DNA of 64,000 nucleotides from Planctomycetaceae bacterium (GTDB lineage: Bacteria; Planctomycetota; Planctomycetia; Planctomycetales; Planctomycetaceae): the NCBI GenBank assembly GCA_002726205.1, contig PBSL01000036.1:1-64000 (forward strand), read 5' to 3'. How positions within the stretch are numbered: position 1 is the stretch's first letter; every line of letters begins with the position of its first letter. Both the position numbers and the translations under genes were made by a program. Shown in pieces: positions 9,526 to 51,325 of the stretch. The notes below the pieces were generated by a model that was not told the DNA's origin, searched no databases, and saw only the letters and a list, made by a program, of their open reading frames with translations.

Positions 9526-9572
9526 AAGCTCCCTGGTCATTCGACACCGCGGCGTGGTTCGGATCGGTCGGG

Positions 9573-9601
9573 TTGAACGCCGGGGCTGGTCTGGCGAGAC
9601 T
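9573..9601 (+). promoter_or_regulatory. Promoter, shared repeat family copy 4
   Basis: TTGAAC (9573-9578), 17 bp, GAGACT (9596-9601) followed by GG. It is the copy closest to the motif consensus CGGGTTGAACGCCGGGGC. Predicted start near 9608, with a 30 nt leader to ATG 9638 that contains CTGGGGAAA. Confidence 0.55.
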
Positions 9602-9637
9602 GGAGTGGTTGGCCAAGACTGCTCCTGGGGAAATGTG

Positions 9638-11626
9638 ATGAGAGGTCTGCTGGGATTGCTGTTGATCGTGGGAGCGGGCGGGTGTGTTGACGATCAGCCG
9701 TCGCTTTCGTTCGAGCGACACGCGGGGTTTGTCAATGGCGTGGGCTTCGGGCGGGTTGTCAGCTTCAGCAATGACAGCACGGTGAAAGGGCAGGCCCGAC
9801 CCGGGACAGCAAAGCCGAAATCATCGAAGCGTGTTTCGAGCGGCGAGTGGTTGCGGGTCGTGGGCAAGCAGATCAGGACTTCGCCGAGTGCGGCGTACTA
9901 TCCCGCTGACCAGGTCTTCCTGGGAATGGGTGTCGCCCACCCGCGGACATCTCAATTGCCCTATGGAAGTGATGAACCGGTCGCCAGGTTCGCCAGGGAG
10001 CGGCATTGCAACATCCTGAGAATCACGACCCATCGGCCCGGCGAGGGAGGTCCGTCGGATGTCGACAAGTTCATCGCCTGGGGTGATGAACAGGTCCGGA
10101 TCTGCAAGAAACACAGGATCTACTCGATTCTCGACTGGTACCACCAATCCGGTTACAAGTTTCTGGTCCACGATCGGGCACGCTTCGATGCCTGGAAGGA
10201 CTTCTGGATTCGCGTCGCCCGGTATTACCGCGACGATCCCTGGGTTATCTTCGAGATTCTCAATGAACCGATCGTCGATCAAGACGAGTGGCTGCAACTT
10301 CGAGATCGAATCGCGGACTGCATCCGGGCAATCCGGGCGACCGAGGGGACCAGGAAGCACCTCGTGCTTGTCGGCGGAAATCGCTGGTGCAACTCGTCTC
10401 ACATCAGCGAATCCTGGGACGGGTTCAATCCCGACCCTGCCAGGATGACCGCAATCGTGTTCCACGACTACAGCGAGAGCACGCCGGAAAAGACGGCGAG
10501 AAACATCGACGAGTTCCAGAAGAACAACGAGATTCCCGTCTTCGGGTCTGAATGGGGGATCAAGCCGGGATTAAAGGGAGCCGGGGTGAAGGAGTGCAGG
10601 GAGCAGGAGATCGGCATGCTGGACAAGGTCTATCTTCCTCGCAAGATCTCCGAATGTTTCTGGTCTCTAAGCGGAAACGGCGGGTTTCTCGAACAGCCCG
10701 AGAACCCCTGGAAATCCCCCGGTCCCGGCACACCGCTGCATGATTGCATTCCCTTCTCAGACATCTGGATTCCTCGAACAATCGAGAATGCGTCTCGCTG
10801 CAGGATTGTCGTCCATCCCGAGATTTCCGCGAGTGCTGGGCAAATCGCAGCAGATGGAGTGGCCGGCAGCACAATCGCCCTGGAGATCAAGGACCAGGCC
10901 AACTGGCGAATCGAGTACAACGACCGGGCAAAAGACAGCGTTCTTTTCAGTACCAGCCACGGGAATCTGGAAGGGACGAACCCGGTCACCGGGTTGGCGA
11001 CGGGTACCGCGAAGGTTGTCCTGAAGTCAGGCAGGCCGGGCACAGCGGATGTCGCGGCCAGCTATTCCTGGAACGCCGCCTTGTGGCAGTACACGGCCGT
11101 TGACAGTTATGTTTCGAGGCCGAGTTTCGGGTACTGGAAGGCCGTTGATGGACGGATCTTCTCTGAATCCAGGATCGCCCGGGACAAGTACAAGGTCTCG
11201 GCATCCAAGAGCTGGCACGCGAAAGGGCCCGGGCCTCACTGGCTTGTCGTGGACCTGGGTGCGGCGTATACGGTTGGCCGGTTCGTTGTCCATCACGATG
11301 GCGCCGATGCTGCCGGGGGAAATCCCCAGCACAACACGAGTGATTTCCAGATTCAGCGAGGCAGCACCCTGGGTGGCCCCTGGAAGGACCTGGCACGGGT
11401 CAAGGGAAACACCGACAGCGTCACGACACACACGATTGCCCCGGTGAAGATGCGTTATGTCCGCCTGTACATCACCGGCGCCGGACAGACGGATGATCCC
11501 ACTGCCAGGATCTGCGAGTTTGAAGTCTATGCGACGGCGAGGGTGACAATTCAGGTGAAGGTCGGGAAATCCACCGCCCCCATCCTGCGGGCCGGTCGCG
11601 GTCGCGGAAGCAAGCCGACATCCTGA
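9638..11626 (+). CDS. GH5-family glycoside hydrolase lipoprotein with Ig-like and F5/8C domains
   Basis: ATG 9638 starts the lipoprotein signal MRGLLGLLLIVGAGGC, almost the same as that of the CotH gene. The 662-residue protein has a TIM-barrel GH5-type catalytic domain at about 75-400. FEILNEP gives the acid/base Glu (near 210), and PVFGSEWG gives the nucleophile Glu (near 305). Residues about 410-495 look like a bacterial Ig-like (BIG2) domain. About 500-650 match an F5/8 type C (discoidin) sugar-binding domain (PHWLVVDLGAAYTVGRFVVHH, MRYVRLYITGAG). It probably acts on beta-glucan or mannan at the cell surface; specificity within GH5 is not readable by eye. The promoter is the shared repeat. 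Confidence 0.85.
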   Translation: MRGLLGLLLIVGAGGCVDDQPSLSFERHAGFVNGVGFGRVVSFSNDSTVKGQARPGTAKPKSSKRVSSGEWLRVVGKQIRTSPSAAYYPADQVFLGMGVAHPRTSQLPYGSDEPVARFARERHCNILRITTHRPGEGGPSDVDKFIAWGDEQVRICKKHRIYSILDWYHQSGYKFLVHDRARFDAWKDFWIRVARYYRDDPWVIFEILNEPIVDQDEWLQLRDRIADCIRAIRATEGTRKHLVLVGGNRWCNSSHISESWDGFNPDPARMTAIVFHDYSESTPEKTARNIDEFQKNNEIPVFGSEWGIKPGLKGAGVKECREQEIGMLDKVYLPRKISECFWSLSGNGGFLEQPENPWKSPGPGTPLHDCIPFSDIWIPRTIENASRCRIVVHPEISASAGQIAADGVAGSTIALEIKDQANWRIEYNDRAKDSVLFSTSHGNLEGTNPVTGLATGTAKVVLKSGRPGTADVAASYSWNAALWQYTAVDSYVSRPSFGYWKAVDGRIFSESRIARDKYKVSASKSWHAKGPGPHWLVVDLGAAYTVGRFVVHHDGADAAGGNPQHNTSDFQIQRGSTLGGPWKDLARVKGNTDSVTTHTIAPVKMRYVRLYITGAGQTDDPTARICEFEVYATARVTIQVKVGKSTAPILRAGRGRGSKPTS

Positions 11627-31302: not shown

Positions 31303-31911
31303 TCAGGTCGACGGTGGCATCGATTCCGGGGGCTGGAAACCCCGTTCCACGGCCCGCTGTTGTTGTTCCAGCCATGGGGCCGGATCGTTCGTCTCCAATA
31401 ACTCGTAGAACAGCATCTTGTAGGTGCAGGGAATCGCACCGGCGGCATACATCCTCGACAGGGCTGGACTGACCTGCGGTTCGGAGCTGAACAGGCAGTC
31501 CTGCAGCAGGAAGACCTGGTAATCCAGGCTGATCAGCCCCAGGACCGACTGCAGGATGCAGACGTCGGTTTCGGCACCCGCCACGGCCAGTTGTCGTCGA
31601 CCGAGTTGCTTGATGGCCGTGGTGATCTGCGGTTCACCGGTGATCGCAAACGCCTGCTTGCTGAAGGTTAGCCCCTCGGCGGGGAAGACTCGGTCGAGCC
31701 GTTCCGGCAACCGGCCCTTGGCTTCGACGGGTTCCTCGAACGTGGCCAGCACGGGCAACTGGAACCACTCGCAGCTGATCAGCAGTTGTTCCAGTCGGTC
31801 CAGCACCGATTCGGGTTCGCCGTGCATGGTCTCGAGAAACCGCGGCTGTGCATCGACGAGGACGACGGCCAGTTCGTCGCGGCGGGCCAGGAGTGATCGG
31901 ATGTTGTCGAT
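31303..31911 (-). CDS. Isochorismatase-family hydrolase, apparently with a non-canonical start
   Basis: A cysteine-hydrolase fold of the YcaC/isochorismatase family. The catalytic set is visible: Asp in LAVVLVDAQ (plus bases 31852-31854), Lys in FSKQAF, and Cys in ETDVCILQ. The only ATG (31827), which follows LVDAQPRFLET, would remove the first beta-strand and the Asp. No GTG or TTG exists between it and the upstream TGA (31939-31941). An AGAGGGA Shine-Dalgarno stands 4 nt before an ATC at 31911, which I use as the start, as in infC; CTG 31890 is another option. With ATC the protein has 202 residues, normal for the family. It is in the same frame as the gene upstream, so readthrough fusion is a third possibility. 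Substrate unknown. Confidence 0.6.
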   Translation of the reverse strand: MDNIRSLLARRDELAVVLVDAQPRFLETMHGEPESVLDRLEQLLISCEWFQLPVLATFEEPVEAKGRLPERLDRVFPAEGLTFSKQAFAITGEPQITTAIKQLGRRQLAVAGAETDVCILQSVLGLISLDYQVFLLQDCLFSSEPQVSPALSRMYAAGAIPCTYKMLFYELLETNDPAPWLEQQQRAVERGFQPPESMPPST

Positions 31912-31938
31912 GGATTCCCTCTGCGGGCTGCTGTGAAA

Positions 31939-33084
31939 TCAGGGTGAGGACGTCTTCTTGTTCTTCTTTCTTGCCGAGGAACCCAGTTCGTTCGACAACT
32001 CCTGGTAGAGCGGTAGGTGGCGGTAGTAGACCTCGAGTGTCATCACGCACAGGCAGGTCATGTACAGCCTCCCGCCGCTTTTTCCGTGGCTGTCGGCGAC
32101 ATCCCAGCTGCCTGCCGCGTGGTCGTTCTTGCGCTGGGAACCGACCAGTTGCTTGCGCATGACACCGTTCCACTTTTTCCACTCGTCTCCGCCCCAGTGA
32201 TGCAGGACCTGGGTGGCGTAGTAGTTGTAGTACATGTTGTTTCTTGCCGGGCCGGTTGCCGACAGATAGCGGACCCCGTTTTCGAGAGCCACGTTGGTAC
32301 GATTCCATCCCATGTACATGCGGGACAACAGCCCCACGGCCGTGGTGGATGGGCGTCGCTGGGGACCGGTGTACCCGTAACCGGCTCCGTTGTCGGTCTG
32401 GACCGAATCCAGGTAGCGACTGGCTCCCTCGAGTGCCCGTGGCAGGATCTTCAACCTGGCCGTGTGGCCGCTTCTCAATGCCATGATCTGCCAGCCAAGC
32501 ACGGATGTATCGCCGCCCTTGCGAGGCTGGTATCGCCAGCCGCCGCTGCCGGGATCCTGGGCCTGCATGATGAAGTTCAAGGCTGATTGCGAGGCGGCAC
32601 GCAACCGTTTCAGGCTGGCCGTGGCCACCTTGCGGTCCACCCGTTCGTTCTTCTTGGTTTTCGTCCGTGAACGGGTCCTCTGCTTCAGGGCCATTTCACT
32701 CATGACCACCGCTTCACAAAGGGCCATCGTCGCGAGTCCCTGGATGTACATGCCGGTGTTTCCCTCGGCCGCCCCCCGCAGGTCCAGGCCGGCCGGTGAC
32801 TGCTTGGCATAGGTCAGCAGGTAATCAAATCCCTTGTACACCGGCTCGCGAAAATTGCCGATGAAATGCGTCTCTCCGGACCCCAGCATCGACAGCAGGG
32901 CCATCGCGGTGGCTCCCATCGGAGATTTCTTGAGTGAACCCGGCTGAGTGCAGGCGCCCTTGCATCCGGCGTGCATGTGATCGAAGCTCCAGCTTCCGTT
33001 GTCGGCCTGGTGGCGACTGATCCACTGCAGGCCGGCCCCAACGGCGGCCTCGCTGGCCGCATTGCCACCGTATTTCTCCACCAA
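31939..33084 (-). CDS. Prenyltransferase/squalene-cyclase-repeat protein, N-terminus split off by an in-frame stop
   Basis: About 380 residues of alpha/alpha-toroid repeats typical of a planctomycete family related by fold to squalene cyclases: GLQWISRHQADNGSWSFDH, GCKGACTQPG, GGWRYQPRKGGDTSVLGWQIMALRSGH, SVQTDNGAGYGYTGP, NNMYYNYYATQVLHHWGGDEWKKWN and GGRLYMTCLCVMTLEVYYRHLPLY. The nominal start is TTG 33084 (or GTG 33081) with no good Shine-Dalgarno. The frame is open up to TAA 33184-33186, and ITGELGGRSQAGRQ, which I recall as conserved in homologues, lies upstream of that start. In relatives a transmembrane N-terminal part is on the same chain; here it is the gene at 33184-33837. Function is unknown; it lacks the DXDD cyclase motif. 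Confidence 0.7.
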   Translation of the reverse strand: MVEKYGGNAASEAAVGAGLQWISRHQADNGSWSFDHMHAGCKGACTQPGSLKKSPMGATAMALLSMLGSGETHFIGNFREPVYKGFDYLLTYAKQSPAGLDLRGAAEGNTGMYIQGLATMALCEAVVMSEMALKQRTRSRTKTKKNERVDRKVATASLKRLRAASQSALNFIMQAQDPGSGGWRYQPRKGGDTSVLGWQIMALRSGHTARLKILPRALEGASRYLDSVQTDNGAGYGYTGPQRRPSTTAVGLLSRMYMGWNRTNVALENGVRYLSATGPARNNMYYNYYATQVLHHWGGDEWKKWNGVMRKQLVGSQRKNDHAAGSWDVADSHGKSGGRLYMTCLCVMTLEVYYRHLPLYQELSNELGSSARKKNKKTSSP

Positions 33085-33183
33085 AGCCTGCCGCCCAGCC
33101 TGGCTTCTGCCTCCAAGTTCACCGGTGATCTTTGCGGTCGGGTTCCCTGCGCCCTCCTTCTTCTCCGGGATCGTCGAGGAGAG

Positions 33184-33837
33184 TTACAGGTCGTTGATGT
33201 CGATCTCGGTCAATTCGTTTGACTCGGTGATCAGATCGGGGACAACCTGCTGCTCGGTGTCGGGCTTGATCTGGTCGGGTTGGATCTCGACGGTTTCTGC
33301 AAACGGATTGTCGTCCTGTTCGAGGGTTGGCAGTGCCGAGAGAATCTCGAATTGTTCCTGGAAATCGGATGGGATAACCATCAACAGCAGCAGCAAGGCG
33401 GCGGCGGCATGGATGGCAATGTTGACGCAGTAGATTCCGATCAAGCGGCGACGATCCGGCTCGGGCTCGGGCAGGTCTTCCCCGTCAGCCGTGAAATCAG
33501 GGAGTGGCGAGGAGTCGGTTTCGTTGGTCTGACGAGTCGCGATCGGTTGGGCGGGCCGGACCGGTTTCCGGGGCTGATCTGTTCTCGCCACCGTTGGTGG
33601 GTGGCTGGCAGCGGTTCCCCGTTCTCGTTCGCGTACCAACAGGTCGCGGAATCCGTCGCGGACGGCCTCGTCGAGGTCGGTCAGGGGAATTTCGAACAAC
33701 TCGGCGCCATCGCTGACGATTGTTCTTTGACGCTCGGCGGGCACGTAGAAACCGTCCCCGCGGGCCTCGTCGAGATCCGAGAGCGGAATCCGGAAGAACT
33801 CGGTGCCGTCCGAAACGGTAATCGTGGTTTCGCTCAT
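33184..33837 (-). CDS. Membrane-anchored protein with tandem acidic repeats (likely N-terminal half of the cyclase-like protein)
   Basis: A 217-residue protein. Residues 1-30 and 40-65 are two copies of SDGxExFxIPLxDLDEAxxDGF. A Pro/Arg-rich linker leads to one transmembrane segment (about 134-155, CVNIAIHAAAALLLLLMVI) and an acidic tail ending TEIDINDL. The TAA (33184-33186) is followed in the same frame by sequence leading into the squalene-cyclase-like repeats. This matches the order TM, acidic linker, toroid that I recall for the single-chain planctomycete family. So this may be the first half of a split gene, or a separate membrane subunit. The ATG overlaps the Hsp70 stop by 4 nt (ATGA), implying coupling. 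Confidence 0.65.
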   Translation of the reverse strand: MSETTITVSDGTEFFRIPLSDLDEARGDGFYVPAERQRTIVSDGAELFEIPLTDLDEAVRDGFRDLLVRERERGTAASHPPTVARTDQPRKPVRPAQPIATRQTNETDSSPLPDFTADGEDLPEPEPDRRRLIGIYCVNIAIHAAAALLLLLMVIPSDFQEQFEILSALPTLEQDDNPFAETVEIQPDQIKPDTEQQVVPDLITESNELTEIDINDL

Positions 33838-35531
33838 GACGAGGGTTCCTCGTCGCCGGCGATGACCCGCGTCCGCCTGGATTTCCAGTCCCCCGGCGAT
33901 GGCGTCGATGGTGCCTCGTCAGCCTCGGGCAACTGCTGGGCCTCAACGGGTGGGGTGTCCGGTGCGGAGACGATGCTGTCGTCGGGAACGGGTGTTCCGC
34001 AACCGGCCTCGATCCACGACGACCATTTCTGGATTTCCTCGGCCGAGAGGCCGTCGGATCGCTCGATGGTCAGCTCTGCCTGTATTTCGACCGAGGGAAC
34101 CCAGGCCGTCACCGCCAGTCGTCCATTCGTCTCGTAGCGGAACTTTACCTCGACCGGAGTTTGTGCCGGGAGTCCCGGTGGCAGACCCTTGACGACGCAG
34201 CGGCCGATCTGCGTCGAGTCGTTGCCACTGTCGTCACCTCCCTCGATCACGTTGACCTCGACACTGGTCTGATCGTCCTTGAGTGTCTTGAAGGCATAGG
34301 TGGACCTGGCCGGGAGTGTCGAGTTGCGGCTGATCATGATCTGTCGGCGTTTTCGGCCGGTGGATCGTTGCAGTCCGAGCACGCCCAGGTGATGAGAATT
34401 GACGTTGGTGACCGACATGCCCTGGATCCCGGTGGCATCGGTGCCCAGTAGCAGGCCGGCGTAAATGGCGGCCCCGTGTGCGATCGACTCGTCCGGCGAC
34501 AGGCAGCGATCGACGGCCATTCCCGACTCTTTTTCCAGCATTTGCTGCACCGCGGGCATCCGGCTGGAACCGCCGACCAGCAACAACCGGTCGATATTCT
34601 CCCAGCTGCAGTCCGCCTCGCGAAGAACCTGGCGAATGGTCAACAGCGTACGGTCCAGCAGGTACCCGGTCAGTTCTTCGAATTCGGCCCGCGACAATTC
34701 CGCCTGGCCCCGACGGCCTTCCCAGGCGAATCGCAGCGTGACCTGTTCGCGTGCCGAGAGGGTTCGCTTGGCATCCTCGGCCGTTTGCTGCAGCAACTGC
34801 AGAGCGGCCGGATCGTTGCGGGGATCGACACCGTGCTCGGCCACGAATCGTTCGGCTGCGAAATCGACGAGCTGCTGGTCCCAGTCAATTCCTCCAAGGA
34901 ACACGTCGCCGGCGGTCCCCCGGGCCGTGTACTGCTCGCCGTCAATCTCCAGCAGGGTGACATCGAAGGTCCCGCCACCGAGATCGTAGACGAGGATGGT
35001 TTCCTGTCGCCGGCTGCGGCCCTGCGCGTCGAGGAACTGCTGCTGGACGCCGTAGGCAATGGCCGCCGCCGTGGGTTCGTTGATGATGTCGAGGACATCG
35101 AGTCCGGCCATTCGGCCGGCATCCTGGGTTCGCCGCCGCCTGGGTTCGTTGAAGTAGGCCGGGACGGTCACGACCACCTCGTGAAAATCGCCCAGCTTCA
35201 AGGCCGCGTCATCCCTGAGCTTCTTCAGGATCAGCGACTGGATGATCTCCGGGGGAAACTGTCTGCCGATGATTTCGCGGTCGAGAAACCGGTTGCCCAT
35301 CTCTCGCTTGGCGAAACGTGCCACACGTTCGGGATCGAATTCGGCAGCCTTGACGGCTTCCTTGCCAACGATCGCCTGGCCGTCGTCGAAAAAGACGATG
35401 CTGGGTGTCGTCAGGTCCCCCTCGGAATTGGCAATCGTCCACGGTCGCCCCTGGTTGTCCAGGTGCGCCACGACCGAGAAGGTCGTGCCGAGGTCAATTC
35501 CCACCGCCGGTGCAATCGTATTCTCTGCCAT
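33834..35531 (-). CDS. Hsp70 (DnaK-like) chaperone lacking the lid domain
   Basis: A 565-residue Hsp70. The nucleotide-binding domain (about 1-375) has GIDLGTTFSVVAH (phosphate 1), VYDLGGGTFDVTLLE (phosphate 2), IINEPTAAAIAYG and LLVGGSSRMPAVQQML. The beta substrate-binding domain (about 390-500) has the expected GVLGLQRSTGRK start and ends near IERSDGLSAEEI. Only a low-complexity tail follows (APDTPPVEAQQLPEADEAPS), so the alpha-helical lid of canonical DnaK (about 640 residues) is absent. It is therefore a specialised Hsp70, unlikely to be the housekeeping DnaK. It lies 35 nt after a J-like membrane protein gene and overlaps the next gene by 4 nt, a clear operon. Confidence 0.9.
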   Translation of the reverse strand: MAENTIAPAVGIDLGTTFSVVAHLDNQGRPWTIANSEGDLTTPSIVFFDDGQAIVGKEAVKAAEFDPERVARFAKREMGNRFLDREIIGRQFPPEIIQSLILKKLRDDAALKLGDFHEVVVTVPAYFNEPRRRRTQDAGRMAGLDVLDIINEPTAAAIAYGVQQQFLDAQGRSRRQETILVYDLGGGTFDVTLLEIDGEQYTARGTAGDVFLGGIDWDQQLVDFAAERFVAEHGVDPRNDPAALQLLQQTAEDAKRTLSAREQVTLRFAWEGRRGQAELSRAEFEELTGYLLDRTLLTIRQVLREADCSWENIDRLLLVGGSSRMPAVQQMLEKESGMAVDRCLSPDESIAHGAAIYAGLLLGTDATGIQGMSVTNVNSHHLGVLGLQRSTGRKRRQIMISRNSTLPARSTYAFKTLKDDQTSVEVNVIEGGDDSGNDSTQIGRCVVKGLPPGLPAQTPVEVKFRYETNGRLAVTAWVPSVEIQAELTIERSDGLSAEEIQKWSSWIEAGCGTPVPDDSIVSAPDTPPVEAQQLPEADEAPSTPSPGDWKSRRTRVIAGDEEPSS

Positions 35532-35566
35532 GGGGGCATTCCTGGTGGCCGGTTTCCCGGGGCGAT

Positions 35567-36229
35567 CTATGGACGCCGTCGGCCCGACTTCTGCCAGTTT
35601 GGTTGAACGATGACCCGGTCTCCGGGAGCCACCAACATGCGGCGATCAATCGACTTGAAACCCTGGCGTTGGATCACGATGTGGTGCCTGTGCCTTGGTT
35701 GACGCTCGAGCGCGACCTCGAATTCCGGTTTTTCGGGCAAATCGTGGGCCTTGCCGTCGACCTGCAGGCTGGCACCGGTCCGCTCGTCCAGACCCCAACG
35801 GAAAACCAGCATTCCACCCGTGGCCGTCGCAGCGTTGTCCGTGCCACCGTTGCGGACCAGGGCGACCAACATCCCCGCCACCAGGGCCAGCGATGCGATC
35901 GAACCCACGATCAGCCAGGTGGGGCGAGTCGACGATTTGGCGGCGGCGGGCTGCCGTTGCTGGAGTTGTTCGTCGTATTCCTGTTTTTGTTCCTGGTTGA
36001 GCAGGCAGCGTCGGGCCAGGAGGATTTCGTTGCTCAACTGCTCTGCCAGTTTGACGTGTTCTCCTGACGACTTGTCTCGCAGGTAAGACGTTCGTTGATT
36101 GGCAGCGGCCTCGATCACGTCCGGGTCGGATTCGAATTGCGCGACTCCCAGCAACCGGTAATGGTCAACCGGTTGCTGGTCGGCGGGGATTCCCAGCCAC
36201 TTGTGATAGGGATCAAACAGTTCGGACAT
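35567..36229 (-). CDS. J-domain-like membrane protein
   Basis: A 220-residue protein from ATG near 36229. The N-terminal part (1-95) has DPYHKWLGIPADQQPVDHYRLLGV, FESDPDVIEAAANQRTSYLR and LSNEILLARRCLLNQEQKQEYDEQL. This matches a planctomycete family with J-domain-like helices I, II and IV but no HPD tripeptide. One transmembrane helix follows (about 111-131, LIVGSIASLALVAGMLVALV), then a small beta-rich domain of PEGA type (LQVDGKAHDLPEKPEFEVALERQPRHRHHIVIQRQGF). It probably localises the Hsp70 encoded just downstream, without the usual ATPase-stimulating HPD loop. The upstream in-frame TTG at 36331 overlaps the promoter and is not used. Confidence 0.75.
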   Translation of the reverse strand: MSELFDPYHKWLGIPADQQPVDHYRLLGVAQFESDPDVIEAAANQRTSYLRDKSSGEHVKLAEQLSNEILLARRCLLNQEQKQEYDEQLQQRQPAAAKSSTRPTWLIVGSIASLALVAGMLVALVRNGGTDNAATATGGMLVFRWGLDERTGASLQVDGKAHDLPEKPEFEVALERQPRHRHHIVIQRQGFKSIDRRMLVAPGDRVIVQPNWQKSGRRRP

Positions 36230-36561
36230 GCTGCCCCGGAACGTAGTGGGCGATTTCGGCCAGGCGATCGCCTGAGAGGACCTGTCGTAGAGCTTACCGT
36301 CCATTCTAACCAGAGAGTCACGACGAACCAATTGGTTGCCCGGAGAACCGCGCCGTCAGGCAGAGGCGGTCCCAGGAAGTCAACCGACGTGGTGTGACGG
36401 TGAAGACGTCACCTGGCGAAAACTTGCGAACATTTCTTTGGATCGATTGTAGAGCAGAACCGGGAAAAGTCTGAAAGGTTTCTGTAACCGGTCGGTAGTA
36501 CTTCTCGGAGCGGGCCATTGCTGACTCGATCAAGGTCAATCCAGGTTCTGGGGGATGTGTC
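36230..36561. other. Divergent intergenic region (about 330 bp)
   Basis: No coding sequence with support. It holds the minus-strand promoter of the Hsp70 operon (36303-36331) and a second possible minus-strand -10 (TACAAT, plus bases 36446-36451, with a weak TTCAGA 18 bp upstream). For the plus-strand giant gene I see only a purine-rich GGGGGA stretch before ATG 36562 and no convincing promoter. Confidence 0.5.
36303..36331 (-). promoter_or_regulatory. Promoter of the Hsp70 operon
   Basis: Minus strand: TTGGTT (plus bases 36326-36331), 17 bp, TAGAAT (plus bases 36303-36308). Start near 36296, about 65 nt before the J-like gene start. I see no CIRCE-type inverted repeat, so control by HrcA is not suggested. 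Confidence 0.6.
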
Positions 36562-39500
36562 ATGAAATCGCTGTTCGAATTCGTTCATCCCCCGTCGTTA
36601 CGTCGCCGCAGGAATCTTCCCCGTCGATCGTCGCCTGCCGAAGCACTCGAAGAGCGGCTGTTGCTCTCCGGAACGTCCGGTCAGATGGTTTGTCCGCCAA
36701 CCGCCGTTGGTGAACTTGCCCAGCAACCCGAACCGTCTGGCAGCGATGGCCAGGCGACCGGGTCCTGCGCGGCGCAACCGACCGGGTCCGAATTGACCTT
36801 TGTGTCCGATCCCGGCCAACGAATCAGTGACGGAGCTATTCCCGAGGTGGGCATCGATCCGGAGACGAACAGCGTCTACCTCTACTACAAGATCGGGCCT
36901 GATACCTGGAGGGCCACTTCCGAGGACGGTGGTCTGGAATTCGGTGAACCGGAACAACCCGGCGACATGTCTTTCGACCCTCGCGGCGTGCGGATGCCAC
37001 GGGCCGACGAGTCCGGGCGAACCGTCTGGCGGCGGATCCGGTGGGAGGCCAACCAGCAAGCTTTCACGAGCCTGGTCTCCTACGACGGGTCCAGCTACAC
37101 CCCCGAAGACGGGGTGAGATATGCCCCTCCTGATACCATTTTCCCGGGAGTGTTCACTGTCTTTTCGACTGCCGAGGGACGTGTCGGCCTGATGTACATC
37201 GGCGACAAGGGACTGACGACGGGCAACGTTCGGTTGGCCTACTCGGATGACAACGGACAGAGCTTCACGCTTCACGATACCAATCCCCTGGGCGATGCCG
37301 GGACCCACGACCAGGGACTCAATCAACGCGATCCGGCGGCGATCGTGCTGGATGACGGTCGGGTGCGGGTGTTCACGATGGTGCAGGGCGGGTCCGACGC
37401 GCCGCTTCCCGGAAGTCGTGCCGTCACGTCGATCCACAGCTTCACCAGTTCCGACGATGGACTGACCTTTACCGAGGATGCGGGGGTCAGGCTGTCGCCG
37501 GAAGACTTCAGCGGGTTCGATGTCTGGTCGCTCAACGATCCCTCGATCATCCCGCTTCCCGACGGTCGCTTCCGGATGTACGTGGCCGGCCTGGTCAGCG
37601 TGGAACCGGATGCGTCGGATGCCCACTGGGTGATTCTCTCGGCCACCACCAAACTGTCCGACGACGATGAGCCGGGCCTCGCGGTCCCCGTGCTGGAAGG
37701 ACCGACTGGCACGATCGCGGAAACGAATCCCGAGTTTCACTGGGGTGCTGTCGAAGCCGCTACCGGTTACGAGTTCCAGATCCTGCACGAAGCCGGGGGT
37801 GCTCCCGGCAACGGCCAGCCGGATCCTCCAGCCGAGCCCCCACCGGGTGTTCCCGGTGAGGTGACGGTGACGCGCTTCGAGGATGGGTCGGTGGAATGCC
37901 GGCCGACCGGTGATGGACCCTTCCCGGCAGTACTCTACAACCATGGCGGGCTGGGAACGGCCGTCGGCGGTGACCTGTTGGGAACCTGCACGGCATTGGC
38001 GGAAGCGGGGTTTTATTCCCGGTCCGAGCAACGTCCGCCGAGCGTTTCGCTTGACGGGCAACTCGAAGATGTCCTCGCCGGCCTGGATCAACTCCGCGCC
38101 AATCCCGACGTGGATTCCGATCGGATCGCGTTGGTTGGATTCTCTCGTGGCGGCCTGCTCGCCCTGCAGGCCGCCGTCGAGCGGCCGAACGAGATCGACT
38201 CGCTGCTGTTGTTCGCACCAGCGCCGGGGCGTGGCAGCATGGCCGAGACGCTCGAGCAAGTTCCGGCCGTTGCGGTGCCGATCCAGATCTTCATAGCCGA
38301 AAACGACAGCCTGCTTCCCCTGGCACACGAGATCGAGCAGGCCTTAGTCGACGCGGAAAAAGATGTCGGCCTGACGGTGTACGAGGCTTTCGAGGAGGAT
38401 GGTCACGATTTGTTCTTCGAGGTTCGAGAGCAGTACTGGGGCGATGTTCTCGAGTTCCTCGAGTCGACCCTCGATGATCCCGTCGTCGGGGGTGGACTGC
38501 AGGTCGAGCATCTTGCGAGCGTGGCCATGCCGCAGGGAACTCATCGGCCGGAGATCCTGTTCACCGGCACCGACGAAATGCTGGCGGTCGTCGTCGATCC
38601 GGGTGAAGACGGCCAGGGACAACGGTTCAAACACCGGGTCTACCGCTACGATGCCCGGTTCAACCAGGTTGGTGACCCGTTTCCGATCACCTGGATCACC
38701 GACGAGTACGGTGAACCGGCCGATCATCGGGCCGCCGTCGTCGATGGGGAACTGGTCGTCGTCTATCAGTCACTCGTCTACGACGACGACGTGCAACGTA
38801 CCGAGGGGCCATCCGAACAGTACGCCCTGAACCAGTCCCTGATGCTGACCCGTTACTCGCTCGACGGCCAGGAATTGTTCCGCGGTCCGATCGTGGCGCA
38901 CGCGACAGATTTTTCCGAGGACAGTTTTCCCGATCACTGTCTCGTGCCGCTGGAGGACTCGTTGCTGGTCTCGACCGGGGCCGGTCAGCAGATCAAGTTG
39001 CGAGAAGTCGGTGACAGGGGAGAAGTGCTGAACACCTACGCGTTCGACACCCGGGAACAGCGGTCGTTGTCGGTGATCGGCAACAGCCTGCTGGATCTCG
39101 GGGATCGTCTCTGGATGTTCGCCGGATCGGGGATGGGGTCGTTGGAACCCAACGGGATTTCCGTCCTCGAACTGGATGACCGGTACCAGCCGACCGAGTT
39201 GGCCTGGTTCGGTGATGATGACCTCGAGCGGACATTTCCGACAGGGGCCCTGCAGTACAACGGTTTCACCCTGGTAACCTACGACGCGCGAGAAAGTCTC
39301 GAGCAGTTCGCTCCGCCCGAGGAACATCCCTACCGTCCCCGGCTGATGGTGCTGGATGCAGACCTCGAGATGCTGGCCGACATCGAGATCGGCAACGGCG
39401 ACGGATTCGCTCATGTGCATCCGACACTCGGCGTCGATGGCGACGAACTGGTCATCGGTTGGAGCATGCAGTCTGATTCCGCCGTCGATGCCGAACGGAT

Positions 39501-41169
39501 CGCTCCGCAGGTGCAGTTGGAGCGCTATGCCCTCTCGTCGCTGTTGGGCGAGCCGTCCGAGGATTCCTCCGGCGAACTGGACGGTCGGCAGGATGCCGTG
39601 GCAGAGTCGTCTCCGGTCAATCCGATTGCCTTCCAGGTGGTGACCGAGGAAACGTCAGCCCGAGCTCCCGAACTGGAACCGGGCAGTTACCAGGCCCGGG
39701 TACGAGCTGTCAGCGAGTCGGGAGTGCCGGGTGAGTGGAGTCGGTCGTTGGTGTTTTCGGTTGACGTGGCTCAGCCCGAGAACGGTCCTGTCGATTTCCG
39801 GTTTGATGTCGATAGGGGAATGTTGGTCCTGCAATTGCGTGAGCCGGTGGAAATCAATGTCGAGGCTGTTGGCGGATCGCTGAAGATTCTTGTCGACGGG
39901 TCGCCAGTGGAAATTGACGAGCCGTTGCTGGTTGAGGCCATTCGGGAAATCGAAGTCCAGGGCAGTTCGGGTGACGACCTGGTGGACCTGGGCGCGGTGA
40001 CGATCGAGGCCTTCGTGAACCTCGAACGGGTTCGGATAGCGGGTCGGGACGGAAATGACGTGTTGCTGGGAAGTGCGTTGCCTGACCGGATCGACGGTGG
40101 AGCTGGCGACGACGTGCTCAGGGGCGGGGGCGGACCTGATCGTCTGCGGGGTGGACCGGGAGCCGATCGTCTGAACGGGCAGCGGGGTAACGACCGGCTC
40201 GACGGAGGAGACGGTGATGACACGTTGGCCGGTGGTGCCGGGGCCGACTTGCTGGCCGGTGGACTCGGCGATGACGTCCTCAATGGCCATGCGGGTATCG
40301 ATGGGCTGGTCGAGGCCGGCAACCATGACTTCGTGTTGAAATCGGATTCGTTGAGTGGCCCGGGGAACGATCGGCTGCGGAGCCTCGAACAGGCGGAACT
40401 GACCGGCGGTGATGACGACAACCGCATGGATGCATCCGGTTTCGATGGTCCGGTCAGCATGTTTGGTGCCGGTGGCGATGACATCCTGGTCGGTGGGAAT
40501 TCCGGTGACCTGCTTGCCGGTGGACCCGGCAGCGACCGGATCAACGGTCGTGGTGGCGCTGATGTTCTCGACGGAAACGAGGACGACGACCGTGTCATCG
40601 GTGGCGGTGGCAACGATCGGATGACCGGTGGTCACGGTGACGATGTCCTCAAGGGGCAGGGTGGTGTTGATGTCCTGCAGGAAATCGGGAATGTCGACTT
40701 TCAACTCTCCGATCACCGACTCGACGGTCACGGTCGCGATCGACTCGCGGGGATCGAAGCCGCACGGTTGGAAGGGGGCGAGGGCGACAATCGCATCGAC
40801 GCCAGCGGGTTTTCTGGAACGACCACCCTGCTGGGGGCTGCCGGGGATGATCAACTGCTTGGCGGTGCTGCCTACGACCGGTTGGACGGTGGCAGGGGCG
40901 ACGATCGGATCGACGGTCGCGGCGGCAACGACGTGCTGATCGGTCGAGCGGGCCGCGACGTGATGTTCGGTGGCGCCGGCGACGATCGGATCCTCGGCGG
41001 TGCCGACAACGACGTGGCCCTGGGCGGTGAAGGTCACGATCGGATCAACGGCCAGGGGGGCGGTCACGACACGGTCGCCGGAGGGGCCGGCCAGGACTGG
41101 CTGGGAGACGACGTCCACGAGATCGACGAGGTGTTTCGACTGGCGGGCGAGTGGATCGACGAGGCCTAG
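36562..41169 (+). CDS. Giant secreted RTX-repeat protein with nested alpha/beta hydrolase
   Basis: 1535 residues. The N-terminus (RRRRNLPRRSSPAEALEERLLLSG) is the planctomycete LEPR-like leader of large exported proteins. About residues 75-380 form a sialidase-like (BNR) propeller. At about 388-413 an Fn3-like domain begins (NPEFHWGAVEAATGYEFQIL). It is then interrupted by an alpha/beta hydrolase (about 430-640; nucleophile GFSRGG near 528, Asp in AENDSLLP, His in EDGHDLF) and a second propeller-like region (about 645-1010). The Fn3 appears to resume at about 1019-1072 (GSYQARVRAVSESGVPGEWSRSLVFSV). From about 1163 to 1510 there are RTX-type GGxGxDxLxG calcium-binding repeats in three blocks. 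Secretion through a type I-like or planctomycete route and surface attachment are inferred. Confidence 0.85.
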   Translation: MKSLFEFVHPPSLRRRRNLPRRSSPAEALEERLLLSGTSGQMVCPPTAVGELAQQPEPSGSDGQATGSCAAQPTGSELTFVSDPGQRISDGAIPEVGIDPETNSVYLYYKIGPDTWRATSEDGGLEFGEPEQPGDMSFDPRGVRMPRADESGRTVWRRIRWEANQQAFTSLVSYDGSSYTPEDGVRYAPPDTIFPGVFTVFSTAEGRVGLMYIGDKGLTTGNVRLAYSDDNGQSFTLHDTNPLGDAGTHDQGLNQRDPAAIVLDDGRVRVFTMVQGGSDAPLPGSRAVTSIHSFTSSDDGLTFTEDAGVRLSPEDFSGFDVWSLNDPSIIPLPDGRFRMYVAGLVSVEPDASDAHWVILSATTKLSDDDEPGLAVPVLEGPTGTIAETNPEFHWGAVEAATGYEFQILHEAGGAPGNGQPDPPAEPPPGVPGEVTVTRFEDGSVECRPTGDGPFPAVLYNHGGLGTAVGGDLLGTCTALAEAGFYSRSEQRPPSVSLDGQLEDVLAGLDQLRANPDVDSDRIALVGFSRGGLLALQAAVERPNEIDSLLLFAPAPGRGSMAETLEQVPAVAVPIQIFIAENDSLLPLAHEIEQALVDAEKDVGLTVYEAFEEDGHDLFFEVREQYWGDVLEFLESTLDDPVVGGGLQVEHLASVAMPQGTHRPEILFTGTDEMLAVVVDPGEDGQGQRFKHRVYRYDARFNQVGDPFPITWITDEYGEPADHRAAVVDGELVVVYQSLVYDDDVQRTEGPSEQYALNQSLMLTRYSLDGQELFRGPIVAHATDFSEDSFPDHCLVPLEDSLLVSTGAGQQIKLREVGDRGEVLNTYAFDTREQRSLSVIGNSLLDLGDRLWMFAGSGMGSLEPNGISVLELDDRYQPTELAWFGDDDLERTFPTGALQYNGFTLVTYDARESLEQFAPPEEHPYRPRLMVLDADLEMLADIEIGNGDGFAHVHPTLGVDGDELVIGWSMQSDSAVDAERIAPQVQLERYALSSLLGEPSEDSSGELDGRQDAVAESSPVNPIAFQVVTEETSARAPELEPGSYQARVRAVSESGVPGEWSRSLVFSVDVAQPENGPVDFRFDVDRGMLVLQLREPVEINVEAVGGSLKILVDGSPVEIDEPLLVEAIREIEVQGSSGDDLVDLGAVTIEAFVNLERVRIAGRDGNDVLLGSALPDRIDGGAGDDVLRGGGGPDRLRGGPGADRLNGQRGNDRLDGGDGDDTLAGGAGADLLAGGLGDDVLNGHAGIDGLVEAGNHDFVLKSDSLSGPGNDRLRSLEQAELTGGDDDNRMDASGFDGPVSMFGAGGDDILVGGNSGDLLAGGPGSDRINGRGGADVLDGNEDDDRVIGGGGNDRMTGGHGDDVLKGQGGVDVLQEIGNVDFQLSDHRLDGHGRDRLAGIEAARLEGGEGDNRIDASGFSGTTTLLGAAGDDQLLGGAAYDRLDGGRGDDRIDGRGGNDVLIGRAGRDVMFGGAGDDRILGGADNDVALGGEGHDRINGQGGGHDTVAGGAGQDWLGDDVHEIDEVFRLAGEWIDEA
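40042..41110 (+). repeat. RTX-type nonapeptide repeat-coding region with a duplicated linker
   Basis: DNA coding for GGAGDD.L.GG type repeats in three blocks (about 40050-40300, 40450-40660, 40850-41110). Between them lie two related linkers: DFVLKSDSLSGPGNDRLRSLE...DNRMDASGF and DFQLSDHRLDGHGRDRLAGIE...DNRIDASGF. Thus a unit of about 420 bp (block plus linker) has been duplicated in tandem. The repeats should bind calcium and fold outside the cell. Confidence 0.8.
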
Positions 41170-41200
41170 CTTCTCGCATGAGAGCAGTCGGCACCGGCGT

Positions 41201-43462
41201 CTAGGGGCTGGTCCTGGCAGCCGACTCCTTGACCAGTTCTTCCACCCGGCGGGCCACGGCAGAGCCGCGAAGATTGGCGGACCGGACAATGCCCTGGCGG
41301 TCGACCAGCAGATTCATTGGGATGCTGTGGACGCCAAAGAGCACGGCGACTTCGTTCTTCCACTTCTTCCCATCGAAGTGGTGCAGCCAGTTCATTTTCT
41401 CCCGGGCGACAACCGTCTCCATCCGCTCCCGGTCATCGTCGAGACTGATCGAGACGATCTGGAATCCCTTGTCGTGAAACCGTTCGTGGGTTGTCCGCAG
41501 GTAGGACATTTCGGCCATGCAGGGCCGGCACCAGGTGGCCCAGAAATCCAACAGCACGACCTGGCCCTTCAGCTTGCTGGAATCGATCATCCCCTCGCCG
41601 CCGTGGCGTGCCACGACAAACGTCTTCAACGGCTTCCCGACCATCCGCAACGGTGCAAACTGCATCTGCATCCGTGGCACGAACCGCTCTTTTCCGCTGG
41701 TCAGCATCAGGGATTCGACGTGGTTCATGAACTCCTCGGCCTCTTTGAGTCGTCCGAGCAGAACCAGGGCGTGCGCCCGTTCGCGGCCATACATTTCGGG
41801 CCTGTCGGGGTAATCGATCATCAGCGAGTCCAGTCGTTCCAACGCCGGCTTGGCCCGGTCGGAGAACAGCAGCGCACCGGCCTCACGGATCCGTGCCAAC
41901 CGCGTGTGGCGTCCCTTGGGGAAACTGTCGAGCAACGTCCGGTAGGCCGGGGCCGACTCGGCATAGCGTTTCAGGTTCCAGAGAGTGAGTGCTCGCAGAT
42001 ACAGGGCTTCTTCCCGCTGCTTTGACTTCGGGTAGGCCTTGAGGAAGTCGTCGAGCTTGCCCAGTCCCGCTTCGGTGGCACGGACGAAGACCAGCGAACC
42101 GCGACGGCGGACCTGCAGTGACTTTTCAATCGCCTGAAAAGCGGTTCCTTCCCCGGCGGGTGATTTGTTCGGACGGACCGGGGTCACGGTCACCGGGCGT
42201 TTTCCCGGTTTTCCCCGCACGACGGTCCATCTGGCTTTCCGGGCAATCACGAACAGTCGGGCGTGTTGTCGCAGGTCTCGTGTCAGGCCCGGTCGCAACA
42301 CGAATTCGACCTTCGTCGGTGACTTTCCGTCGCTGGTGAATTCCAGGCGGTCCTGTCCGGAACCCGACCAGCGAAAGACCAGCACGTGCTGCTTGTCCCA
42401 GTCGATTCGTTTTCCCAGGTCCTTTGCCTGTTTCTCGTCGGGAACCAGTTCTGCGAATCGCTTGGCCGAATCGACTGTCTCGGGTTTCTGCACCGCGCCC
42501 CGTGTCCCGGCGGGAACTTTCGCCAGTTTGACGGTGGGCAGTGCCTGGACGACTTCCGGACCGGGCTTGGTAACCAGTGTGCGAATCGACGAAGAGGCGA
42601 CGCAGAGTTTGAAGACCATCTGCAGGTTTTCCTGCTTCCCGTCGGTCTGGCGGTAGTACAGGGAAGAAGTTCGCGAGACGATCCCGACGACATTTCCGGC
42701 GAGGTCGAGAATCGGTCCACCGCTGGAACCGCGGCCGAAGTCAGCCGTGATCGACATCACGTCGGTCCGTCCGTCGGATCCCTGCTCGGAAAAGTAACGC
42801 GAGATGATCCCATCGCTGAAATGGAAGAAGTGATTGTTGGGATGCCCCAGTACGCGAATCGGTGATCCCGGCAGAGGGTTCTTGCCCAGGGGCAGTGCCG
42901 GCAGGTTGCCGGTATCGAGCTTGATGACGGCGACATCGTGTCGCCGACTCGACGCGAGTACTTCCCGGACCGGGATCACCCGGCCCTTGGCCGTCATCGC
43001 CACCATGGTCTCTCGTTTCTGCTCGGGGCGACCTCGCACGACGTGCTCGTTTGTCAGAACCTCGCCGGACGTGCCGACCACCACGCCGCCGGCCACGGTA
43101 GCGTGCAGGCGGGTACAACGGTTGCAGTAGTAGAGGCTGCTGATGATGACCACGCTCTGCCGGGCCCGGCGGTACAACTCGTCGGGCTTCAAGTCGCTGG
43201 TCGCCGGCGGCGCGAACTTGACCTGGCAGACGGAACGTCCCAGGCCCTTCTGCAAGTCGGCAATCGGTGTGGCCTGTTTGGTCTTCAGCAACCGTTCGCC
43301 CTCGATGACCAGGGCCTGCATGCGGGCCTTGTCGCCGAGGCGAACGCGGGAAGAGGTCTTCTTCTTTGCCGAGGGGGCGATTTCTTGTGCCAGGAGTGTT
43401 GCGTGGGTCAGTCCGACCAACAGCCCGACAACGCCCAGCCTTGCCACGAGCGACGAGTTCAT
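41201..43462 (-). CDS. Trypsin-like protease with C-terminal thioredoxin domain
   Basis: ATG 43462 follows CAGGAG and starts a Sec signal (MNSSLVARLGVVGLLVGLTHATLLAQ). The 753-residue protein has an HtrA/DegP-like serine protease domain (about 75-300): His in LTNEHVV (near 139), Asp in RHDVAVIKLD (near 177), Ser in GRGSSGGPI (near 245). A beta-rich middle and a TPR-like helical part (about 480-600, AYPKSKQREEALYLRALTLW) follow. The last 130 residues are a TlpA/ResA-like thioredoxin domain (DFWATWCRPCMAE near 644; VHSIPMNLLVDRQGIV with the cis-Pro). No PDZ domain is evident. A protease and a disulfide reductase on one exported chain suggest quality control of periplasmic proteins. Promoter at 43523-43551. 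Confidence 0.85.
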   Translation of the reverse strand: MNSSLVARLGVVGLLVGLTHATLLAQEIAPSAKKKTSSRVRLGDKARMQALVIEGERLLKTKQATPIADLQKGLGRSVCQVKFAPPATSDLKPDELYRRARQSVVIISSLYYCNRCTRLHATVAGGVVVGTSGEVLTNEHVVRGRPEQKRETMVAMTAKGRVIPVREVLASSRRHDVAVIKLDTGNLPALPLGKNPLPGSPIRVLGHPNNHFFHFSDGIISRYFSEQGSDGRTDVMSITADFGRGSSGGPILDLAGNVVGIVSRTSSLYYRQTDGKQENLQMVFKLCVASSSIRTLVTKPGPEVVQALPTVKLAKVPAGTRGAVQKPETVDSAKRFAELVPDEKQAKDLGKRIDWDKQHVLVFRWSGSGQDRLEFTSDGKSPTKVEFVLRPGLTRDLRQHARLFVIARKARWTVVRGKPGKRPVTVTPVRPNKSPAGEGTAFQAIEKSLQVRRRGSLVFVRATEAGLGKLDDFLKAYPKSKQREEALYLRALTLWNLKRYAESAPAYRTLLDSFPKGRHTRLARIREAGALLFSDRAKPALERLDSLMIDYPDRPEMYGRERAHALVLLGRLKEAEEFMNHVESLMLTSGKERFVPRMQMQFAPLRMVGKPLKTFVVARHGGEGMIDSSKLKGQVVLLDFWATWCRPCMAEMSYLRTTHERFHDKGFQIVSISLDDDRERMETVVAREKMNWLHHFDGKKWKNEVAVLFGVHSIPMNLLVDRQGIVRSANLRGSAVARRVEELVKESAARTSP

Positions 43463-49633: not shown

Positions 49634-51325
49634 TTAGTACTGCATCCCATCGGGAGTGCTGCGGTCGATCGGCACATCGATCAGCCGGGGCCTCGGGTCG
49701 GCCAGGGCCTGGCTCAGTACCTCTGACAGCTCGTCGGCCCCGGTGACCCGGCAGGCCTCGACGCCCAGCGACCCGGCCAGGCCGACGAGATCGACCTCGG
49801 GGTCCACAAGGTCCACACCGACGTACTCGCCCCGGGTCGCGTGGGGCAGGCCAATGCCGCGGGCACCGACCTTCAGGATCTGGTACTGCGCGTTGTTGGG
49901 GATCACGAAAGTGACCGGGATCTTGTAGCGGGCGGCAGTCCAGAGTCCCTGGATACCGTACATCGCGGCTCCCTCGCCGATCACGCCCAGGACCGGGCGG
50001 TCGGGCCAGGCCAACTGGACACCGATTGCACAGTTGAGGCCCCAGCCCAGTCCCCAGCCACGATGGCCGAAATATCCGGTCGGGTCGGCGATCGCGCCGA
50101 GCCGCTCGAGATACGTGTTGGTGGTCGTCACGGCCTCTTCGACCACGGCGACGTTTTCCGGCAACACGGCGGCGATCGAGGACATCAGGGCCAACGGTGT
50201 CAGTGGGCGGTCCGGGAGCTCGGCGGCCGCGCGGGCGACGAGCTGGTCACGGGCACTGCGATGCACGTCGGCCCGGGATTGACCGCGGTCGGCGGCAGCC
50301 TGTTGCTGGTCAGAGGTGAGTTGTTCGGAAAGCCGCGAGGCGAGTTCGGCCAGGCCGGTCTTCAGGCCACCGACCAACGCCACTTCGGTGGGAACGTTCT
50401 TGCGGAGTTCCCAGGGGTCGTGATCGAGATGTACCAGCCGGATGTGCTCGGGGACCGCGCGGGCGGGTTCGTAGTAGACGTACAGCCGCAGCATGTCGAT
50501 TCCGACGGCAAAGACAACGTCGAATTCTTCGAGCCGGGCATGAATCTCGGGAGCCCACAAGGGCAGACCCGGAGCCGAGAGCGGATGCGTGCAGGGGAAA
50601 CTCAGCCGGCCATGCGTCGTGCCCGGTTCACTGAGCACCGGGGCACCCAGGGCCTGGGCCACCGCAACCAGTTCGGCGACCGCATCACTTTCCACCACGC
50701 GGCTGCCGGCGAGGATCGCCGGATTGGTCGCGGTGGCCAACACGTCGACTGCGCGTTGAAGTTCTTCGACCGGGGGACGCATCCGGGAATCCAGCGGCCG
50801 GGGCGGTGTCAGATCGACCGCCGGTGCCTCCTCCTGTTGTACGTCGACGGGGATCGAAAGGAACACCGGACCGGTCGGCGGCATCAGTGCCGTCTGGATC
50901 GCCCGCCGCATTGCCGCCGGCACATCCTCGACCCGCTGCACCTCAGCCGCCCACTTCGTCCACGGCCGGGCCACCTCGACCATGTCGCCCCAGAGGATCG
51001 GTTCGCTGAACCGCAGCCGTCGATCCTGCTGGCCGGCCGTCACCACCAACGGCGTGCCGGCCCGGTAGGCGTTGTAGAGCATCCCCAGCCCGTTGCCCAG
51101 CCCCGGGCTGATGTGCAGGTTGACCACCCCCGGCTGGCGGGTCGCCTGGGAATACCCCTCGGCAATCCCCATCACCGGCACTTCCTGCAGACCGAGGATG
51201 TACTCGAGCCGGGTCTCCTCGACCATCGCGTCGGTCAAGGGCAACTCGGTCGAACCGGGATTGCCGAACACGTAATCGACACCGGCCGAAGCCAGCATCT
51301 CGAGCATCAATTGGGCACCGTTCAT
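49634..51325 (-). CDS. ThDP-dependent decarboxylase (benzoylformate-decarboxylase/acetolactate-synthase-like)
   Basis: A 563-residue thiamine-diphosphate enzyme. The PYR domain (1-165) begins NGAQLMLEMLASAGVDYVFGNPGSTELPL, with the catalytic Glu in LGLQEVPVMGIAEGYSQ (near 48). A central domain (about 180-340) follows. The PP domain (about 375-540) has GYFGHRGWGLGWGLNCAIGVQL and the ThDP/Mg motif GVIGEGAAMYGIQGLWTAARYKIPVTFVIPNN, in which GDG is replaced by GEG. It resembles benzoylformate decarboxylase and related 2-oxo-acid decarboxylases more than acetolactate synthase, but specificity is uncertain. It stands alone, convergent with the PAC2 gene and divergent from the MerR gene. Confidence 0.8.
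   Translation of the reverse strand: MNGAQLMLEMLASAGVDYVFGNPGSTELPLTDAMVEETRLEYILGLQEVPVMGIAEGYSQATRQPGVVNLHISPGLGNGLGMLYNAYRAGTPLVVTAGQQDRRLRFSEPILWGDMVEVARPWTKWAAEVQRVEDVPAAMRRAIQTALMPPTGPVFLSIPVDVQQEEAPAVDLTPPRPLDSRMRPPVEELQRAVDVLATATNPAILAGSRVVESDAVAELVAVAQALGAPVLSEPGTTHGRLSFPCTHPLSAPGLPLWAPEIHARLEEFDVVFAVGIDMLRLYVYYEPARAVPEHIRLVHLDHDPWELRKNVPTEVALVGGLKTGLAELASRLSEQLTSDQQQAAADRGQSRADVHRSARDQLVARAAAELPDRPLTPLALMSSIAAVLPENVAVVEEAVTTTNTYLERLGAIADPTGYFGHRGWGLGWGLNCAIGVQLAWPDRPVLGVIGEGAAMYGIQGLWTAARYKIPVTFVIPNNAQYQILKVGARGIGLPHATRGEYVGVDLVDPEVDLVGLAGSLGVEACRVTGADELSEVLSQALADPRPRLIDVPIDRSTPDGMQY

Follow-up and report, generated by a model that had tools for sequence, protein, structure and literature searches.

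Introduction

Genes interrupted by a nonsense codon and genes that start at a codon other than AUG are the described systems closest to the locus reported here. For the first kind, Feng et al. reportedly found in 2022 that Salmonella pseudogenes show low protein expression. For the second, AUC and AUU starts are known, such as the AUU of infC (described in parts of PMC9845219). Our locus lies on the minus strand of a 64,000-nucleotide (nt) stretch of DNA, the window, to whose whole length all positions refer. Over 33837-31303, three open reading frames (ORFs) share one frame and are split only by a TAA (33184-33186, junction 1) and a TGA (31939-31941, junction 2), an arrangement claimed in a first-pass annotation of the DNA and confirmed at the base level. 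The ORFs encode a membrane-anchor piece, a cyclase-like domain and an isochorismatase-family protein. The window lies within contig C37 of a draft assembly (4.86 Mb, 76 contigs; genome G000), and we take its host to be a planctomycete from the named relatives.

Comparison with relatives indicates that the two junctions are different things: junction 1 interrupts a gene, whereas junction 2 ends one. We lean, with a little more confidence than doubt, towards two separate recent lesions, a nonsense stop and the loss of a start, with no programmed recoding. Like nonsense-interrupted genes, the interrupted gene has open orthologues and a single stop, with an intact, constrained frame to either side of it. 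Unlike them, the locus shows no clear decay beyond the two lesions, and a stop in the same linker occurs in another genome. The isochorismatase gene resembles genes with non-AUG starts in having an ATC, with GAGG 6 nt before it, at the beginning of its conserved sequence; it differs in that the orthologous start may be an AGG three codons upstream, that the orthologues use ATG, and that the ATC is a predicted start only.

Results

A search of 170 genomes at the family setting placed the closest copies of the membrane protein in one genus, g76: G191 (80%), G189 (78%) and G190 (74%); no further genome of the window's own genus, g1, turned up. In all three the gene is a single open chain from the transmembrane segment through the repeat domain. 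At the site of the TAA the relatives read CTG GAG ATC/ATT and the window CTG TAA CTC, so that a Glu codon is replaced by a stop found in none of the three, and the codon after it is changed as well. A nonsense mutation (or a sequence error), one of the options listed in the first-pass annotation, fits junction 1, given the Glu codon there in the three closest relatives.

The first possible restart codon after the TAA is a TTG (33082-33084), 99 nt downstream, which agrees with the distance of 100 nt to the next ATG, GTG or TTG given in the annotation. The block ahead of any start, which the annotation had called conserved in single-chain planctomycete homologues, proved to be so when the homologues were aligned and the same site was inspected: EISSAIPEK/EIASAIPEK...ITGELGGRS occurs in each of the three closest relatives, whose chains are open across the position of the TAA. 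The 33 codons from the TAA to the TTG (33085-33183) are conserved at the protein level, with proportions of nonsynonymous differences (pN) of 0.15-0.17 and of synonymous differences (pS) of 0.58-0.80 between window and relatives. These codons begin the cyclase-like domain (31942-33183), which in other copies forms the C-terminal portion of the membrane protein and is the best conserved product of the operon, with 72-81% identity to g76 compared to 64-76% for the DnaK-like protein and 43-47% for the anchor piece. In 23 other homologues, chosen by hand, 64 columns are invariant, and the domain matches them at 63, its sole departure being G354D; the others depart from 0-3 of theirs. As the sequence past the stop is conserved and constrained as protein, the stop must be young, false (an error) or bypassed.

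We consider it quite improbable that the TAA is bypassed by readthrough yielding some full-length membrane protein. Protein conservation does begin directly at the stop, and the window sequence can be folded into a hairpin around the TAA (–18.3 kcal/mol, z –1.39, with 17 of 200 shuffles as good). However, the stop is missing from close relatives, the three relatives examined do not preserve the hairpin, and its z score changes with the stretch folded, from –1.39 to –0.60 and +0.93 in longer stretches. No suppressor for TAA or TAG was found among 35 matches to RF00005 with anticodons read; as transfer RNAs (tRNAs) for Ile and Cys are also missing, the set is incomplete and an unseen suppressor is possible. 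More generally, neither a conserved stop nor a conserved cis element was found at the junctions.

Another way in which the stop could be real is functional fission, with the anchor piece and the domain made as two proteins and the second reinitiated at TTG 33084. The split falls within the linker and the domain is intact from about YGGNAASE. The annotation had pointed to an AAGGAGG with no start codon near it, 24 nt after the TAA (plus bases 33153-33159, minus strand), and it stands as described. In frame it reads AAG GAG G, two codons matching Thr-Lys or Thr-Glu codons of the relatives (ACG AAA or ACA GAG), and inspection of the sequence found no ATG, GTG or TTG at a usable distance from it. 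This speaks against fission, as does the conservation as protein of the 33 codons before the TTG, which implies that they were translated until recently. Fission would also cost the domain its anchor: the domain itself contains no hydrophobic segment (highest hydropathy over 19 residues, 1.24).

To see how such stops are distributed we turned to the subfamily, for which no more than the ten top candidates of each genome were scored in the 170 genomes at family and order setting, so that copies may be missing. At least 19 copies were found in at least 15 genomes (E ≤ 1e-90). One of them, G118:C207, is cut by a contig end, leaving 18 testable copies. Sixteen of these are open, a further point against fission, and among the copies scored only those of G000 and G118:C234 have an interior stop. 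The latter is a TAG (ACC TAG GAG, L163:4448-4450) in the same linker, nine codons past the position of the window's TAA. An in-frame ATG follows it. With stops spread evenly, a second stop would fall within nine codons of the first by chance in ∼1.5-3.0% of cases (19/1,267 or 19/634 codons), and within eight codons in 1.3-2.7%, figures that rest on two cases, both in draft genomes. The G118 TAG hints that a split at the linker may be tolerated or even put to use, and it may be a parallel to fission in the window.

The chain appears to tolerate cuts in other respects. In G117, G094 and G006 (L166, L167 and L168), Hsp70, linker and domain form one open frame of 1,231-1,375 codons, whereas Hsp70 is a separate gene in the inspected copies of G000, g76, g57 and g73. 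The interrupted G118 gene (L163) likewise joins Hsp70, transmembrane linker and domain, its interior TAG lying in the linker. Taking both sides together, we rate functional fission as improbable, if a shade less so than readthrough. Other flagged stops were checked as well: of 16 loci flagged in the genome searches as having a stop inside and fetched (a subset of all flagged), seven have the stop after the conserved YYRHLP end, i.e. at the natural C-terminus, and nine have no stop inside the alignment. A flagged TGA in G034 is likewise a natural C-terminus.

Junction 2 is of another kind. The annotation's options included readthrough to one large protein with transmembrane segment, repeats and isochorismatase, and this did not survive the comparison. 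Orthologues of the isochorismatase in G189, G191 and G190 (L140, L141 and L142; 62-65% identity) begin with ATG in all three genomes. Each lies on a different contig from the gene for the membrane protein and immediately follows a gene whose product has a WCRPC motif, which we take to be thioredoxin-like. A single fused protein was rejected on these grounds. Because the isochorismatase is an independent gene in the relatives, the TGA is a normal gene end, preceded by a variable basic tail, and readthrough is unnecessary.

In the window, the first ATG, GTG or TTG after the TGA lies 111 nt on, beyond the VDAQ motif, presumably the site of the catalytic Asp; the annotation was thus right that no start lies between the two. 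Its broader claim that conserved sequence precedes any start at the junctions fits junction 1. It needs correcting for junction 2, where the conserved part of the isochorismatase gene (31303-31920 with its stop) begins at about 31920 or 31911, and where FHSSPQ, just before that part, has no counterpart in the three relatives.

The position of the lost start depends on the alignment. Without gaps, the relatives' ATG falls in all three cases on AGG 31918-31920, one base from ATG, and 19-20 of the 36 bases after it are identical. With a gap of three codons it falls on ATC 31909-31911, with 16-17 of 27 bases identical; the nine bases before the start match better with the gap (4-7) than without (1-2). 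MAFFT globalpair put the M at AGG, and localpair and auto left it unplaced and aligned the remainder without a gap. The placement on ATC comes from one BLAST alignment, to G189, which, one change aside, has the same eight bases GAATCCAT ahead of GAC, a likeness confined to G189. That the ATC sits exactly at the orthologous ATG was accordingly dropped as a claim, since it depends on this one gapped alignment and the ungapped one gives AGG. Under either alignment the window has no ATG, GTG or TTG at the orthologous start and the frame is otherwise whole; on this comparison, the ATG start of the isochorismatase gene has been lost. Non-AUG initiation is possible, for instance at ATC 31909-31911, for which GAGG (31918-31921, overlapping the AGG) is a possible ribosome-binding site, 6 nt before it.

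UGA recoding probably exists in this organism, and it provides a standard against which junction 2 can be judged. An ORF on contig C21 of G000 (L184:13569-13916, plus strand), whose product we take to be ArsC/Spx-like, has an in-frame TGA at L184:13608, in MAARINWYYQRKG-TGA-TSCVKAQGF. G000 encodes a selenocysteine tRNA (tRNA-Sec, C63) and SelB (C76; 353.9 bits, cut-off 242.25), and the TGA of L184 is followed by a strong hairpin (z –4.18). These three features make L184 very probably a selenoprotein gene and a positive control for recoding. At TGA 31939-31941, in contrast, no hairpin follows (z +0.73), and no chain runs across the site with Cys or Sec in the relatives, the isochorismatase being separate in all three. 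Selenocysteine at this TGA was rejected because of the separate isochorismatase and the missing hairpin; for all that the genome has tRNA-Sec and SelB, we attach next to no probability to selenocysteine insertion or readthrough fusing domain and isochorismatase.

We then asked how often such lesions occur in the assembly. An ab initio scan flagged same-frame gene segments with coding signal ahead of any start. Over 447,410 bases of G000 it flagged 16 of 326 segments, with both junctions among the top three, which agrees with the suggestion in the annotation that two junctions make chance less likely; over 1,242,391 bases it flagged 36 of 1,046, and the two junctions ranked lower. A control scan of 163 kb of g76 flagged 5 of 120. 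Ten of the other flagged places were inspected by eye and the remaining rows judged from the printed peptide only. We judged the ten to be shadow ORFs or ordinary genes, except for one probable selenoprotein and the unclear L218:3213-3482.

A second scan compared orthologues in 31 non-overlapping stretches on fetched contigs of relatives (14,621 aligned codons, ≥55% identity). The TAA of junction 1 was the only stop inside a gene in these orthologue-like stretches; a second flagged stop (51364) lies before an ATG at 51325 and not inside a gene. Within its scope, the ab initio scan likewise gives no sign of an assembly rich in such lesions. A comparison of start codons was possible for 10 of the 31 (7 ATG, 1 GTG and 2 CTG); both CTG cases, and a further row at L230, are paralogue matches, with low identity or a frame cut by the stretch end.

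These counts bear on the chance that one or both sites reflect a mistake in the consensus or assembly, or an allele of a minority strain, with a sense codon and an ATG in the true genome. The draft state of the assembly lends weight to this, as do the otherwise intact and constrained state of both genes, the single base that separates AGG from ATG in the ungapped alignment, and the single copy of the locus in the assembly, which offers no second allele for comparison. However, two substitutions less than 1.3 kb apart would have to have produced precisely a stop and the loss of a start. Of random substitutions in the two genes, ∼4.1% would be disabling, and two lesions therefore correspond to ∼48 substitutions, or 1.9% of sites; for errors this implies many more of them nearby, yet the 14,621 orthologous codons hold no other interior stop. 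GAG to TAA also takes two changes, and the adjacent codon differs too. An error is in our view unlikely but the most serious of the alternatives, and we favor real lesions over it with reasonable rather than strong conviction, because the error density needed would be confined to this locus alone.

To look for relaxed selection, we computed ratios of nonsynonymous to synonymous substitution rates (dN/dS). Isochorismatase counts start at 31908, and the calculation of the disabling fraction puts ATG for that codon. For the domain, dN/dS is 0.10-0.14 between G000 and g76 and 0.09-0.10 within g76; for the isochorismatase, the values are 0.22-0.31 and 0.12-0.18. The neutral fraction of the path implied is 1-5% and 6-16%, respectively. 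This small excess fits a short neutral phase, weakly so, since pS approaches saturation and a comparable excess is seen in other genes.

Several observations weigh against two recent lesions. The dN/dS of other genes is raised in the same comparison: 0.14-0.21 against 0.07-0.11 for the thioredoxin-like gene, 0.11-0.17 against 0.07-0.21 for DnaK, and 0.08-0.13 against 0.09 for two further window genes. No frameshift or second stop was found in either gene, and constraint on the domain is close to that on its neighbors, so that decay is at most a possibility. The step from GAG to TAA requires two substitutions, and the TAG of G118 lies close to the position of the TAA.

The anchor piece (33187-33837, minus strand, like the DnaK-like and DnaJ-like genes upstream of it) comprises 217 residues and one transmembrane segment (hydropathy 2.51 at CVNIAIHAAAALLLLLMVI), with RRR before the segment and acidic residues after it. 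This charge pattern suggests that Hsp70 is inside and the domain outside. The AlphaFold2 model of the cyclase-like domain (predicted local distance difference test score, pLDDT, 84.4) matches 2sqc_A best (Z 26.8, 286 aligned residues, root-mean-square deviation 3.0, 16% identity) and further alpha/alpha toroids at Z 21-24. The model thus predicts a squalene-hopene cyclase fold; we do not claim cyclase activity. Squalene-hopene cyclases have an acid motif, DxDD, which was not found in the window's chain (searched as D.DD), and the window protein differs from them also in its low identity and in its membrane anchor beside Hsp70. The isochorismatase gene product scores above the Pfam cut-off for the cysteine hydrolases of PF00857 (E 7.3e-15, 55.9 bits against 27) but falls short of the YcaC equivalog cut-off (44.1 bits, where 310 is required).

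The anchor ORF overlaps, by ATGA, a gene for a DnaK-like (Hsp70) protein (33834-35531; PF00012, E 5e-124), which is presumably in the same operon as the membrane/cyclase-like gene. Upstream, at 35567-36331, lies a gene whose product matches DnaJ weakly (E 0.11, below the cut-off). In G191, the DnaK-like gene (L162, G191:C289, ∼9547-9925) aligns in two pieces, 1-151 and 170-565, perhaps owing to an insertion or a frame error. A block of ∼9 kb (31920-41219) made up of a 1,535-codon gene and the J-like, DnaK and membrane genes parts two genes that are neighbors in three relatives, the isochorismatase gene and the thioredoxin-like gene, which in the window ends at ∼41219. The region has therefore been rearranged. 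Insertion of the chaperone genes here or joining of the neighbor genes in the relatives would account for it, and the rearrangement may have run in either direction. Between 31200 and 36700 no Rfam family reached its gathering score. The promoter scan returned 1 hit (0.5 in shuffles) and the terminator scan 2 (1.9 in shuffles). A literature search found no papers on planctomycete fusions of DnaK and squalene-cyclase-like domains.

Discussion

If both lesions are real and recent, a linker Glu codon of a membrane protein otherwise made as one chain would have become TAA, cutting the anchor from the C-terminal domain. The domain would now not be made, or would be made in traces through leaky readthrough or a weak restart at the TTG, and without its anchor it would stay in the cytoplasm. 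If the topology suggested by the charge pattern is right and the domain belongs outside, the stop leaves it without a route to its place. The TGA is the normal end of the cyclase-like gene, and the gene that follows is an independent isochorismatase gene whose ATG is gone. That gene may be silent, or weakly translated from a near-start codon such as the ATC behind GAGG. The rearranged region as a whole may be losing function.

A more speculative scheme treats the locus as a chaperone operon gated by translational fidelity, in which the domain would be made only on readthrough of the TAA and the hydrolase only on a lax start at the ATC, so that both report translation errors. In such a scheme, the linker stop of the second genome would be a parallel case. 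We regard it as very improbable, more so than plain readthrough of the TAA.

These results carry a caution. The conserved block ahead of any start codon is real, yet relatives resolve the locus into a nonsense-type stop and a lost start, and no recoding is needed to explain it. Should sequencing reads confirm both lesions, the locus would present an Hsp70-linked membrane protein severed within its linker, next to a rearranged region. The linker stop of a second genus would then be a candidate for tolerated fission of such proteins.

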